From: Candidatus Poseidonia sp.
Lineage (GTDB): Archaea; Thermoplasmatota; Poseidoniia; Poseidoniales; Poseidoniaceae
Direction of reading: 5' to 3'
Assembly (NCBI GenBank): GCA_030828165.1
Contig: JAURDA010000009.1
Coordinates: 1 to 48,381 of the forward strand
Length of the DNA stretch: 48,381 bases
Position numbers and translations under genes: made by a program. Within the stretch, counting starts at the first letter, position 1. Every line of letters begins with the position of its first letter. Shown here one piece after another: positions 28,456 through 34,346 of the stretch. The notes below the pieces were generated by a model. It worked only from the letters and a program-made list of their open reading frames with translations. It searched no databases and had not been told where the DNA came from.

Positions 28456-29877
28456 ATGGAGGCATGGATTCCACTCGGCTATTTGCTGTCTGCAGCACTC
28501 TTCATTTTCGGACTCAAAAAACTGGGCCACCCTCGCACGGCGCCCCGAGGCAACCAATACGGTGCGATGGGCATGCTTGTTGCAGTCATCACGACGGTTG
28601 TTGACATGCAACTCGCCTCCGGAGGCATGCATTGGGAACTCATCGTTGGCGGTCTTGTCGTTGGCTCGATCATCGGCCTCATCATGGCCATCAAGGTCGA
28701 AATGACGGGGATGCCTGAACTCGTTGCGTTGTTCAACGGATTCGGCGGAGCTGCATCTGCGTTGGTTGCGCTTTCTGAGACTTGGAAATACATCGAAAAC
28801 CCTGACCTTCCCCTTCCAACCGGATTGGAGTTGGAAGTGGTGGTCATCGCTGCTGGACTCTCTGCTTTGGTCGGATGGATGACCCTTACCGGTTCGCTGC
28901 TCGCCATGTTCAAGCTAAAAGGCGGCATCGAAATTTTCGGAAAATGGTTCAGTACACCAACATGGGGCCCGTCCTGGCTCAACCCGATCAAGGTGCTCCT
29001 CGCCGTAAGCGTGCTCGCCCTCATTGTGATGTCCATCAACGACCCGACCAACACCGACTACCTTTGGGCCATCATCGGTATTTCCTGTTTGCTCGGCATC
29101 GTGCTGGTGCTTCCAATCGGCGGTGCCGACATGCCGGTTGTCGTTTCCCTGCTCAATTCGCTCTCCGGTATTGCCGCAGCGTTTACCGGTTTCATCATCA
29201 GCAATCCCGTTCTCATCGTGGCCGGTTCGCTCGTCGGGGCTTCGGGGTTGATTCTGACCTTCATCATGTGCAAGGCCATGAACCGAACCTTACCCGACGT
29301 GTTGTTCAAATCCTTCGGCGGCAGCACGAAGGAAAAAGTCACCCGCACGAAAGTGGGCTCTGATCCTGACGAAGTTGCCATGATGGTCGATGGGGCTCAA
29401 AAGGTGATCATCGTTCCCGGTTACGGCATGGCAGTCTCGCAATGCCAGCATCAGGTCAAAGAGTTCGGTGATTTGCTCAAAGAAAAGTACGACACCGAAG
29501 TCAAGTACGCCATTCACCCGGTCGCAGGACGCATGCCCGGTCACATGAACGTCTTGTTGGCTGAAGCAAACGTCCCCTATGAACAACTCATTGAAATGGA
29601 CGAAATCAATCCGGAGTTCCCCGAGTGCGACGTCGCCGTCATCATCGGTGCCAACGACACTTGCAATCCCGCCGCTCGCACGGGCGAGGGGCCGCTGGCT
29701 GGGATGCCGATCATCGATGCCGACCAAGCGCGAACGGTCATCGTCATGAAGCGGTCGCTCTCCCCCGGCTTTGCCGGGATCGACAACGACCTCTTCTACA
29801 TGGACAAGACCATGATGTTGTTCGGTGATGGAAAGGCCATGATGACGGGACTGAACAACGCCATCAAAGAGAATTGA
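28456..29877 (+). CDS. pntB: NAD(P) transhydrogenase subunit beta
   Basis: 473 residues. The N-terminal part has about eight membrane helices with the channel motif MPVVVSLLNSLSGIAAAFTGF; the soluble C-terminal part binds NADP(H): VIIVPGYGMAVSQCQHQVKEF, HPVAGRMPGHMNVLLAEANVPY, IIGANDTCNPAAR and VIVMKRSLSPGFAGIDN. All motifs are intact. With pntAA and pntAB it lets the cell drive NADP reduction by NADH with the proton gradient. Confidence 0.96.
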   Translation: MEAWIPLGYLLSAALFIFGLKKLGHPRTAPRGNQYGAMGMLVAVITTVVDMQLASGGMHWELIVGGLVVGSIIGLIMAIKVEMTGMPELVALFNGFGGAASALVALSETWKYIENPDLPLPTGLELEVVVIAAGLSALVGWMTLTGSLLAMFKLKGGIEIFGKWFSTPTWGPSWLNPIKVLLAVSVLALIVMSINDPTNTDYLWAIIGISCLLGIVLVLPIGGADMPVVVSLLNSLSGIAAAFTGFIISNPVLIVAGSLVGASGLILTFIMCKAMNRTLPDVLFKSFGGSTKEKVTRTKVGSDPDEVAMMVDGAQKVIIVPGYGMAVSQCQHQVKEFGDLLKEKYDTEVKYAIHPVAGRMPGHMNVLLAEANVPYEQLIEMDEINPEFPECDVAVIIGANDTCNPAARTGEGPLAGMPIIDADQARTVIVMKRSLSPGFAGIDNDLFYMDKTMMLFGDGKAMMTGLNNAIKEN

Positions 29878-29948
29878 TGGAGCCGATAGGCAAGGGCATG
29901 AAGCAACATTCAAAGAGCGAGGACTTTTGGAAATAACCAGGTGAGAGC

Positions 29949-30905
29949 ATGCGTCGCAACACAAGGAACCTCTCTTTGATGCTCGTTCTTTCCCTGATGC
30001 TGGTGGCTCCTGTCCTTGGTAACCCAAACGGACCTCCTTGGGACAACGGCGGTAGCCTCGTGGTCGACACGGGTTGCACCTGTCACGGGGGCGGTGCTCC
30101 GTCAACGGAAGTGGTCGTTTCCATCTCCGGTGTACCACGCGCTTACAACCTCACCGAAACCTACACCATGACCATCACGCTCCAGCACGCCTCGAACGAT
30201 GGAGGCGGCTTCCTCATCTGGGACGAAGGCGTTGGAACCCTCATCGCAGGCACCGGCAGTCAAACCGTCGCTGATGAACCGGGCGCCCTTTCCCAATCCG
30301 AACCCGGAAACAATTGGGAGATTTCATGGCAGGCGCCTTCGGAAGACGTGGGTCCGGTCAACTTCAAACTTGTAGGGAATGCGGTCAACGGCAACGGTGT
30401 TTTTGATGAGGGGGACAAATGGAACATCCTCACCTTTACCATCAGTGCTCCTGGTGCAACCGAAATCTCCACCAATGAAGACATCAGCCTCCGCACCATC
30501 AGCGTTGGCGACTACGAATCGCTTTTCGTGGCCGAGGAGGATCCTGAAGCCATTGAAGCCGAGCGACAGGAGGGCATTGCCCACGACTTCTTCACCAACG
30601 GAAACCTCTACTATTGGACCACCCTCTCCCTCATCATCGTTGCAGCGGTTGTTCAAGGCGAGTTTTACGAGCGCCGATTTGGAGGTGGACCTCCGCATTT
30701 GGACAAGAGCATCGCTATCCCTCAAGGACTGCGCCGAGGGGGACTTGCCGCATTGCTTTCCGTCGCCTTTGCGTCCTTTGTTGATGCCGGGCAACCTTGG
30801 GGGTATTCCCTCGTTCTGGGCATGTTAACGCTCTGGGCCGTGTACGGTGTTTACCGAACCGTTGTCCAAGCACGCGCACCGAAAACCTACACCGACCTCG
30901 TATGA
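29949..30905 (+). CDS. Secreted reeler/choice-of-anchor-like protein with CxCH motif and membrane tail
   Basis: 318 residues. A signal peptide (residues 1-24) is followed by LVVDTGCTCHGGGAPSTEVVVSISG and a beta-sandwich resembling the reelin/choice-of-anchor V family (TYTMTITLQHASNDGGGFLIW, NWEISWQAPSEDVGPVNFKLVGNAVNGNG), then hydrophobic segments near 223-240, 262-280 and 285-305. The CxCH at 43-46 falls one residue short of the CxxCH that carries haem c, so haem attachment is open. GGTGAGAG precedes the ATG. It lies directly before the tatC-like gene, 10 nt apart. Confidence 0.8.
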   Translation: MRRNTRNLSLMLVLSLMLVAPVLGNPNGPPWDNGGSLVVDTGCTCHGGGAPSTEVVVSISGVPRAYNLTETYTMTITLQHASNDGGGFLIWDEGVGTLIAGTGSQTVADEPGALSQSEPGNNWEISWQAPSEDVGPVNFKLVGNAVNGNGVFDEGDKWNILTFTISAPGATEISTNEDISLRTISVGDYESLFVAEEDPEAIEAERQEGIAHDFFTNGNLYYWTTLSLIIVAAVVQGEFYERRFGGGPPHLDKSIAIPQGLRRGGLAALLSVAFASFVDAGQPWGYSLVLGMLTLWAVYGVYRTVVQARAPKTYTDLV

Positions 30906-30915
30906 GGGTGCATGA

Positions 30916-32184
30916 ATGACGATTCTCCTCGAATCGGACCGCTTTGATGCGCCTCAATCTCACTTGGACGAGTTATCCATCCGGGTGACGATCGTTTTCC
31001 TGTTCGTTGGAAGTTTAACGCTCCTTTGGTCCTTCTATGTCGACGAGATTCTCCGGAGTCTTGTTGAACATCTGCAGCCTTGTCAAGGTGCATGCATGAA
31101 CGTTTACGACCCGGCCCAATGGAGTGCCGTCCGGTGGTCCGCAGCCTTGTTGTTGGGTTTCGTTTCTTCGCTTCCTCTCGTTCTTCATCACCTGTTCCGT
31201 TTTTCAAAACCAGGCCTCCTCGATTCCGAGTACCGATTCTTCAAGCGTTGGACCCTCCTTGCAACGTTCGGGGGCCTTCTCGCCACATACGCCATCGTGG
31301 TTGGCCTTTTGCCCGAATTGTATCGCTTTGGTTTTGAGCAACACATGGGAGTGGGTCTCGAAGCCCAATACAACACGGCACATGTGGTCATGCTCGCTTT
31401 GTATTTGGTCTGGATAACGTGGATATTCGTGACGACCGTGTTGCTCCTTGTCCTCGGAGGCACCCTCGGTCTGATCACTTCAGCGACAGCGGATTGGTTT
31501 CGCCTGCGCATTTACGGCCTTGGTACTCTCCTCATCATCACCACCGTACCGGGCCATGCGTCATCCCTTGCTCTACCGCTTCTGGCCACGTATGTCACAA
31601 TGGGCGAGTTGGTGGGAAAGAACTGGTACACCACTACATCAACGGTCTTTGGGGAAGCGAAAGCCAAGTTTGACCGGGAAGGGCGGCGTCGAAGATTTGC
31701 CGTGATGGATTGTTCGTGCCTTGGGGCAAACGAGCATTTCGGTGCCTGCTCTCCAGAAGGATGCACCACCCTCCGATTCCAGGGACTTTGCGCATCGTAC
31801 CAGGAACGGGAAACGGCCCTTGATCATGCACTAAAACACGGCATCACCGATCTCGTTGTCACGGGTTGCAATCGCCAACCTTTGCCTGCGTCCTTCATCC
31901 AAAATTTGGAAATCCTCGGCATCGGACTTCACGGGCTTGATTTGATGCGCCTTCGTTCCCACCGGGTTGAATCCGGTAATCTGCAACTCGACACCGCCCT
32001 GGGCATGGCATCCATTTACGCCGACGTTCTCGGTGGCTCGACCGACCGTTGGTTCACGGATGTGCTCGAGAAATACGGCGTTCTTCCGACCGAACTCGTC
32101 CAAATTGATGGAACGCTACGAGGTTGGGGGACGTTCAACGGCGATATCTTGATCTTCCTGCACAGCACACAGAACGAGGCTTGA
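30916..32184 (+). CDS. tatC: TatC-like translocase with an unknown Cys-rich C-terminal domain
   Basis: Residues 1 to about 240 are TatC, the membrane receptor of twin-arginine protein export: cytoplasmic SHLDELSIRV, six hydrophobic segments, the conserved FRFSKPGLLDSEYRFFKRW before helix 3 and PELYRFGF after. The first outer loop has a CxxxC pair (Cys56, Cys60). Residues about 245-422 form a soluble extension that normal TatC (about 250 residues) lacks: six Cys (266, 268, 278, 283, 292, 318) in a CSCLG...CSPEGC...LC arrangement, then an alternating helix/strand region ending GTFNGDILIFLH. I do not recognise this domain. By topology it should face the cytoplasm. The frame is unbroken. Confidence 0.85.
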   Translation: MTILLESDRFDAPQSHLDELSIRVTIVFLFVGSLTLLWSFYVDEILRSLVEHLQPCQGACMNVYDPAQWSAVRWSAALLLGFVSSLPLVLHHLFRFSKPGLLDSEYRFFKRWTLLATFGGLLATYAIVVGLLPELYRFGFEQHMGVGLEAQYNTAHVVMLALYLVWITWIFVTTVLLLVLGGTLGLITSATADWFRLRIYGLGTLLIITTVPGHASSLALPLLATYVTMGELVGKNWYTTTSTVFGEAKAKFDREGRRRRFAVMDCSCLGANEHFGACSPEGCTTLRFQGLCASYQERETALDHALKHGITDLVVTGCNRQPLPASFIQNLEILGIGLHGLDLMRLRSHRVESGNLQLDTALGMASIYADVLGGSTDRWFTDVLEKYGVLPTELVQIDGTLRGWGTFNGDILIFLHSTQNEA

Positions 32185-32234
32185 GGCTCCCAAACATCAC
32201 GAAGGTTCAAACACGAATCTCCATACTTCCAACC

Positions 32235-34346
32235 ATGAAGCGGCTTGCATCCATGGTGTTGGCCGTCTTGCTGCTCTCAGCATCGCTGGTGATGTGGTTC
32301 AACGGGTCTGGCTTGACCGATTGGCTGACTGAGCAACGCATCATCATCGACGAGTACGAACGTGATTCGCTTCTTGGCCTCCAAGCAGACGAGCACTGGT
32401 TGGTCGTCGTTGTTGATTTCCCTGACCATCCCGCTTCGGACGCATGGGGGCCTACGGAGGCGCAAACCCTTCTTGATCAAGCAGCTAAGCCTTACATTGA
32501 CCAGCTTTCTGGGGGAACTTCCTCGTTGACACTGGACGTTCATACCGAAGTGGTGAGGGCTTCGTCCAATTTGGCTGCATACGGGTCAGACGGGACCGGA
32601 AAAGACACGGATGCGAGCGGCCAATTTCTTCCTGCACAACTCGCTCAAGAGGTGGTAGAACGACTTGAGTCATCTCTCGCATGGGAAGATGCCGATTTGG
32701 ATGGGAACGGCCAGGTTGACCGGCTGCTCATCCTTCATTCCACAAAAGGGCAAGAGGAGAGTTCGGGCGTTCAGGAGCGCATCTGGAGCCATTTTACCAC
32801 GTTTGAAGAACCGTTGGAGGTCAAGAATGATCTCACCGTCGCCCATTACACGATGGCAAGTTTGCAAACGGGATCCAGCGGCGTTGGTACAATCCTGCAC
32901 GAAATGCTTCACCAAATGGGTGCGGTTGACCTTTATCCTGTTCATGACGAAGGCTCCTTCCAAGCATGGAAAGGTCCCGGTGATTGGGACATCATGGCAA
33001 GCGGAAACTGGAACGGCGGTGGTCGCTGGCCCGCCCTACCCACCGGGGCCACGTTGGACTTGATCGGTGCTCCACAAATACAGCCCGTTGACCTTGTATG
33101 GCCCAACTCCGCCGTGAAACCCTGCATTGGACCAACCGTTCAACTCTCGGGTCTGTCTGAAAAAGGAGACGTGCTCAAGATTCAAATTTCTGAACAGGAA
33201 TTCGTTTACATTGAACACCGCTCCGATTCAGGATTTGATGAACGATTACCCGGGCATGGTGTTCTCGTTACGTATCAAGACTTGAGCGTCGGAGACATCG
33301 AATCCAATGAATTGAACACCAACCCGAACCTCCCTTGGATGATGGTTGTTGAAGCCGATGGAGGGAACGATCTCATAAGCGGGGCGAATCAAGGCGAAGC
33401 CTCTGACCTGTTTCAAAACAACACGAGTTTCGGGGCGAGCGGCGTTCAAATACGAACCCATGACGGCGTGCTTGTCCCTTGGACTGCCCACGTGATGTTG
33501 AACAACGCATCCGCAACGCTCACCTTTGAAGCGGAGGGTTGCACGCCCCATTTTCAACTCGACTTGCCCGACCACGGAGCAACGGTCCTCTTTGATGAGC
33601 CCGTTCTTCTTTCGCTGGAGCCGTTGAGCACAACTTGCAACGCAAACCTCACCTCGTCCGATGGAAGAGCGGTCACCTTCGTTTCAAACGGCGACGAGTC
33701 CATGCTTCGGTTCTCCTCATCAGGTACACCCAATTCGATTGTCCGTATCTTGGGCACCGTAACATGCGGTGAGCGGTCAGTGGACTTGGATTATGACGTT
33801 CGCATTCTCAACCGAATCCCAAACCTCGCAGCATTCACGGATTCAGTCCACCCGACAACAAGCACATCGCTGAGTGTCCCTCTGGACTCAACGGGTGATG
33901 GCGATCAACTTCTTTCCGTTTCTCTCAACGGGCCGCTTGCCCGAGTAGCCACGACCGCTGAAACCGTCAACATGGCTTCAGGCTCGCTTGAACTGGACAT
34001 CGACCCAAACGGTTTGCTGGTTGAAAACATGCTCATCAAAGGCGAGATCGTCCTTTCAACCACGGAAGGATTGTCGTGGACCCTTCCGGTCGAGTTGGTG
34101 GCCGAATCCCGTGAAGCAGGATGGCGCACATACCTCCCTGAACCTCATCAGCTATTTTCGGGACTTCTCCTCTTGATGGCTCTCTCGATGATGGCCCAAC
34201 GAGGTACAAAGGAGACGGATGTCGAGAACAAACCCGCTGCGTACTCGCAGACACCAATGACGGACGAACTTGACGCTTGGGGAAGGCCGTTGGACACATC
34301 AACATCAAGTGCTGCGGTGGATGTTCAGATACGAGATCTGCCCTGA
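32235..34346 (+). CDS. Secreted M6-type (immune inhibitor A-like) metalloprotease
   Basis: 703 residues from the ATG at 32235, which starts a signal peptide (KRLASMVLAVLLLSASLVMW). The zinc site HExxH is present as TILHEMLHQMGAVDLY, followed by GPGDWDIMASGNWNGGG, typical of M6 peptidases. An Asp-rich strand DADLDGNGQVDRLLIL precedes it. Beta domains follow, then a hydrophobic segment near 634-650 (LFSGLLLLMALSMM) and a tail MTDELDAWGRPLD. It probably cleaves proteins at the cell surface. The frame reaches back to 32124, overlapping tatC. Its end overlaps the convergent endA by 42 nt. Confidence 0.88.
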   Translation: MKRLASMVLAVLLLSASLVMWFNGSGLTDWLTEQRIIIDEYERDSLLGLQADEHWLVVVVDFPDHPASDAWGPTEAQTLLDQAAKPYIDQLSGGTSSLTLDVHTEVVRASSNLAAYGSDGTGKDTDASGQFLPAQLAQEVVERLESSLAWEDADLDGNGQVDRLLILHSTKGQEESSGVQERIWSHFTTFEEPLEVKNDLTVAHYTMASLQTGSSGVGTILHEMLHQMGAVDLYPVHDEGSFQAWKGPGDWDIMASGNWNGGGRWPALPTGATLDLIGAPQIQPVDLVWPNSAVKPCIGPTVQLSGLSEKGDVLKIQISEQEFVYIEHRSDSGFDERLPGHGVLVTYQDLSVGDIESNELNTNPNLPWMMVVEADGGNDLISGANQGEASDLFQNNTSFGASGVQIRTHDGVLVPWTAHVMLNNASATLTFEAEGCTPHFQLDLPDHGATVLFDEPVLLSLEPLSTTCNANLTSSDGRAVTFVSNGDESMLRFSSSGTPNSIVRILGTVTCGERSVDLDYDVRILNRIPNLAAFTDSVHPTTSTSLSVPLDSTGDGDQLLSVSLNGPLARVATTAETVNMASGSLELDIDPNGLLVENMLIKGEIVLSTTEGLSWTLPVELVAESREAGWRTYLPEPHQLFSGLLLLMALSMMAQRGTKETDVENKPAAYSQTPMTDELDAWGRPLDTSTSSAAVDVQIRDLP

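Follow-up and report, generated by a model that had tools for sequence, protein, structure and literature searches.

HdrA_N-type Fe–S domains are known from the energy metabolism of methanogens, and where multiple TatC proteins occur in the manner of Bacillus TatCd and TatCy they make up complete translocases that work in parallel. Individual residues of TatC have been assessed in E. coli, where five positions in the first cytoplasmic loop (F94, P97, L99, Y100, and E103) are critical and D211 of the third outer loop is essential (PMC3712464); signal-peptide binding is blocked in F94A/E103A, and TatC works as an obligate oligomer (PMC5102672). The N-terminal domain of HdrA (HdrA_N), for its part, belongs to an electron-transfer protein (PMC9012536; domain order also in PMC12054007), and one ligand of its cluster is supplied by a partner subunit (PMC9012536). 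The window analyzed here, a stretch of 48,381 nucleotides from a MAG of the Poseidoniales (Marine Group II), joins a TatC to what is very probably a relative of HdrA_N. Poseidoniales are the commonest archaea of the surface ocean.

Architecture of the locus

The open reading frame at 30916-32184 (+) encodes a TatC of 422 residues, here termed TatC2, whose coordinates, strand, and length are exact, and which consists of TatC and a C-terminal HdrA_N-like extension. The Pfam TatC domain (PF00902) covers residues 15–211 with 59.1 bits against a cut-off of 25.1, and TatC chains in the PDB match residues 15–227, placing the membrane part at residues ~15–227 (30958-31596, +). On the same frame the NCBIfam TatC models score below their cut-offs, so this part of the protein is divergent. 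The signal-peptide-binding motif, F96-SKPGLLDS-E105 (31201-31230, +), is equivalent to F94...E103 of E. coli. The CxxxC pair that the first-pass annotation placed in the first outer loop is present as C56-QGA-C60 (31081-31095, +). This pair is invariant within the family to which the window belongs and absent from the other Poseidoniales family, is conserved independently of the cysteines in the extension, and could possibly form a disulfide outside the membrane. Beyond the TatC part lie ~175 further residues, which are cytoplasmic, as previously proposed, given the known topology of TatC.

Adjoining tatC2 upstream, at every locus examined, is a choice-of-anchor V domain protein, here of 318 residues (29949-30905, +; NCBIfam NF041895, 80.3 bits), with a GCTCHG motif and membrane segments at its C-terminus; the GCxCH portion of the motif could bind metal or heme. 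Further upstream, at 28456-29877 (+), is a conserved neighbor that we take to be a pntB-like transhydrogenase beta subunit, a name that comes from sequence recognition rather than a family search. Downstream lies a conserved M6-family peptidase-like protein (32235-34346, +; Pfam PF05547; start codon inferred). The arrangement pntB, choice-of-anchor V, tatC2, M6 peptidase recurs at nearly all loci examined, with a few cut by contig ends, including loci whose TatC2 has no extension, and GCxCH is invariant whatever the state of the extension; the neighbors therefore do not explain the domain. Conservation of the order across 28456-34346 in two Poseidoniales families is in itself unusual for seemingly unrelated genes.

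Two TatC paralogues with complementary motif loss

Most Poseidoniales genomes encode two TatC proteins, TatC2 and, at a different place in the genome, a shorter TatC1 of 250–300 residues (for example G000:C10:19952-20602, given also as L159:2390-3229, on the minus strand), and at most one recognizable TatA per genome was found in those searched. Both paralogues were aligned to E. coli TatC (NC_000913). TatC2 keeps F94 in 52 of 54 sequences and E103 in 53 of 54, lacks F-E/Q-x-P (E. coli 169–172), and has mostly replaced D211 of P210-D211. TatC1 (n = 13; the row T1_L163 is a wrongly sorted TatC2) shows the reverse, with F94 and E103 missing, an insertion in the first cytoplasmic loop, and F-Q-x-P and P-P-D present in 13/13. 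Like the TatC proteins of E. coli and other Thermoplasmatota, TatC2 thus has the TatC Pfam domain and the first-loop F..P.L...E, but it differs from them in its cytoplasmic extension and in the absence of F-E/Q-x-P and P-D, motifs that are held instead by the second TatC. In outgroups of the phylum, the single TatC combines F94/E103 with F-E/Q-x-P, and D211 is variable.

The complementary loss of motifs, in line with the obligate oligomerization of TatC (PMC5102672), leads us to predict, with a modest lean in its favor, that TatC1 and TatC2 form one mixed, split receptor. Bacillus likewise carries two TatC paralogues per cell, TatCd and TatCy (PMC3827258), whereas each Poseidoniales paralogue lacks motifs that the other has kept. 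A quick tree places TatC1 and TatC2 in separate clusters, and both TatC types are apparently found in the sister family of the class as well, there without the extension. The split between them thus appears to be older than the extension. A third and far more canonical TatC was seen in a single Poseidoniales MAG (G275:C6:8225-8851, L178), on a contig that is probably a bacterial contaminant.

Identity of the extension

The first-pass annotation regarded the extension as unrecognized, and single-sequence searches against Pfam, NCBIfam, and the PDB indeed gave no significant match, the best hint being hdrA_Methbact at E 0.12. Profile searches, which covered Thermoplasmatota, instead reveal a relative of HdrA_N at residues ~251–346 (31666-31953, +). 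Alignment of the extension profile to 49 HdrA N-domains with hhalign yielded a score of 44.5 over ~84 columns (P 94%, pairwise E 1e-7); because this E-value refers to one pairwise comparison, shuffles are the better guide, and they reached at most 18.7 (100 column shuffles) or 24.6 (shuffles with Cys fixed), with 12.5 for the reversed profile. The score was still 34.0 when the HdrA Cys columns were masked. All four conserved cysteines of the extension align with those of HdrA_N (CxC, C, C).

Searching 194 Thermoplasmatota genomes with the extension profile returned, outside Poseidoniales, mainly long open reading frames, with per-genome E-values from 2.9e-5 upwards. The 22 matches at i-Evalue ≤0.02, in 20 loci outside Poseidoniales, comprise 18 with the strict HdrA_N Cys motif, three with a looser version, and one in a MiaB-type-like protein, and those host proteins that were checked match HdrA models. 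In the reverse direction, the best three Poseidoniales matches to an HdrA_N profile (residues 2–108 of 5ODC chain A) were the extended TatC proteins of three genomes (G017 and G002, both at E ~1e-4, followed by G031); no other convincing HdrA N-domain was found in the Poseidoniales searched with this profile. Taken together, these comparisons make it very probable that the extension is related to the N-terminal [4Fe–4S] domain of HdrA.

The relationship is not one of identity. The extension shares with HdrA_N (5ODC chain A, residues 2–108) the CxC, C, C cysteines in equivalent places and perhaps, as far as a weak model shows, a similar order of predicted strands and helices. It lacks, however, CG.NI and NIRE..SWVH, which are invariant in HdrA_N, and has a segment after CxC that is ~9 residues shorter; having kept the four cysteines without these motifs, it is best described as HdrA_N-like rather than as an HdrA. 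It also sits on TatC rather than on an FAD/thioredoxin-reductase domain, and the protein ends at residue 422. The model in question, made with AlphaFold for the full protein and for the domain from an alignment of three sequences, was of low confidence (domain pLDDT 55), and Foldseek gave no significant match to the domain so modeled, an outcome we regard as uninformative at this model quality. The variable C-terminal tail (residues 347–422; 31954-32181, +) is short or absent across much of the second family, and may weakly continue the similarity to HdrA, in that hhalign detects weak homology to the next HdrA segment (P 38%).

Conserved cysteines

Residues 245–422 contain six cysteines in the layout described by the first-pass annotation (C266-x-C268, C278, C283, C292, and C318), yet only part of its CxC...CxxxxC...C pattern withstands comparison, with the CxC, C292, and C318 strictly conserved and the CxxxxC pair (C278 and C283) not. 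Across 56 distinct domains, C266, C268, C292, and C318 are all present in 51 and all missing in 5, with no intermediates, a pattern that excludes chance or an assembly artifact as the origin of these cysteines. The core of the aligned members further includes D-x-E-G, R-R, D-C-S-C-x-G-A and a later C, together with E-R, T-D, I-T-G-C-D, P-x-P, and G-L. The proposed cluster ligands are accordingly located at 31711-31719 (C266-x-C268, ligands 1 and 2), 31789-31791 (C292, ligand 3), and 31867-31869 (C318, ligand 4), all on the plus strand. Homology to HdrA_N and the all-or-none behavior of the four cysteines both support the Cys-based metal or Fe–S site suggested previously, and we consider it likely, judging from sequence, that the extension binds an Fe–S cluster. 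Four local ligands are an assumption, because in HdrA a partner subunit supplies one (PMC9012536), and the extension has no HdrA partner Cys available to it.

Distribution and probable gain and loss across Poseidoniales

TatC was found in 193 of 194 Poseidoniales genomes and the extension domain in 137 of the 194, spanning 18 of 21 genera and at one conserved locus, so that the fusion extends well beyond a single assembly. Several genera retain the tatC2 locus without the extension; because almost every genome is a draft assembly, an isolated absence carries little weight. The idea that the domain might occur elsewhere as a separate gene next to tatC found no support, since genomes without the fusion gave no domain match among the Poseidoniales searched. 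Because both families have the domain and its absences are scattered at one locus, we infer that it was gained on the Poseidoniales stem and subsequently lost. Mapped on a tree of the neighboring choice-of-anchor V protein, absence of the domain entails at least three changes and loss of its cysteines at least two. In two lineages, all four cysteines were lost together and the rest of the domain was retained, which suggests that part of its role is metal-independent. In one genome (G245), TatC is cut off from the extension by an in-frame stop (L219:332-1384), which probably reflects a sequence error or else a break of recent date.

Proposed role and alternatives

We tentatively propose, at somewhat short of even chances, that TatC2 functions in a mixed TatC1–TatC2 receptor with the HdrA_N-like domain as an auxiliary redox- or Fe–S-responsive module. 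TatC2 would be the signal-binding half, retaining the cytoplasmic signal-peptide-binding site, and TatC1 would supply the two elements missing from TatC2, FE/Q-x-P and P-D, with both paralogues probably acting jointly with the single recognizable TatA. The relocated and divergent HdrA_N-type domain would most likely hold a [4Fe–4S] cluster on C266, C268, C292, and C318, and would probably respond to redox or Fe–S state by tuning the docking of Tat substrates or the assembly of the receptor. Confidence falls along this chain: redox gating of export by the TatC2 domain is a doubtful prospect, and the strictest version, in which neither TatC1 nor TatC2 is complete, both function solely within a mixed oligomer, and a redox-active [4Fe–4S] domain on the signal-binding subunit gates the export of folded proteins, is less likely still. 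Arguing against the redox-responsive module are the dispensability of the domain in several genera and the Cys-less domains of two lineages.

The main rival is that the extension is a docking or oligomerization module, holding TatC2 to TatC1, TatA, or a cytosolic factor, with a metal that is structural and conveys no signal. This is unlikely, though a serious contender; the HdrA_N cluster is itself shared between subunits (PMC9012536), and the domain survives the loss of its four cysteines in two lineages, but their strict all-or-none retention in the other lineages suggests that the site is important in its own right. A further explanation is that the resemblance to HdrA_N reflects convergence, i.e. 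a similar Cys pattern on an alpha/beta domain that is really zinc-binding or unrelated. The failure of single-sequence searches to find a significant match speaks for this, and yet the alignment scored 34.0 with the HdrA cysteines masked compared to at most 24.6 for shuffles that kept them, and matches outside Poseidoniales are nearly all to HdrA, leaving convergence with little probability.

Two further alternatives take the domain to be concerned with cofactors or electrons, and both appear very unlikely. The first-pass annotation had suggested that the extension proofreads Tat substrates, checking that Fe–S or other cofactors are loaded before export. To our knowledge, Tat proofreading is performed by substrate-specific chaperones and not by TatC. 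Quality control of Tat substrates is nonetheless a known theme (PMC3712460), and the domain does sit on the subunit that retains the signal-peptide site. Set against this, the domain or its cysteines have been repeatedly lost, the domain being dispensable and the cysteines having disappeared twice, and the Rieske proteins recovered, which we considered as a reason for the domain, have no evident association with it: they have a cytosolic oxygenase- or ferredoxin-type appearance, carry no Tat signal, and occur regardless of the domain. Proofreading of cofactor-loaded substrates is thus not borne out by this survey, which among cofactor-bearing proteins covered the Rieske type. Alternatively, TatC2 could be the membrane anchor of an electron-transfer module that relays electrons between the cytoplasm and a membrane protein or a neighbor, with the transhydrogenase and the CxCH protein as candidate partners, an idea favored by the role of HdrA_N in an electron-transfer protein (PMC9012536, PMC12054007) and by the conserved neighborhood of pntB, the CxCH protein, and tatC2. 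The neighborhood and GCxCH are, however, unchanged in genomes that lack the domain or the four cysteines, and the signal peptide of the CxCH protein puts its motif outside the membrane, on the opposite side from the domain. Moreover, TatC2 has kept its signal-peptide site and is hence still a Tat protein.

If the redox-responsive reading is correct, the Tat translocase would be directly redox-controlled, and a split two-TatC receptor with a grafted Fe–S-type domain would constitute a new architecture of an ancient exporter. Export in Poseidoniales may accordingly be linked to the redox or iron–sulfur state of the cell, offering a possible route from redox state to the control of secretion, and the paralogues provide natural separation-of-function variants of TatC. 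Neither a split TatC receptor nor an Fe–S-type domain on TatC was found described in the literature searched, which included few subscription journals.

FlpD/MvhD (PF02662), also a Cys-bearing domain and with a profile related to that of HdrA_N (score 39.1), was considered as the family of the extension and rejected: the extension matches HdrA_N (44.5) far better than PF02662 (17.8, P 2%), to which it has no Pfam match. FlpD was not found in the Poseidoniales searched. A stand-alone HdrA_N-like protein of 130 residues (CxCxGTCPSF...C...GC) is encoded in another Thermoplasmatota genome (L131:1329-1718, −), and its CxCxGxCPS stretch is close to the extension of the second Poseidoniales family.
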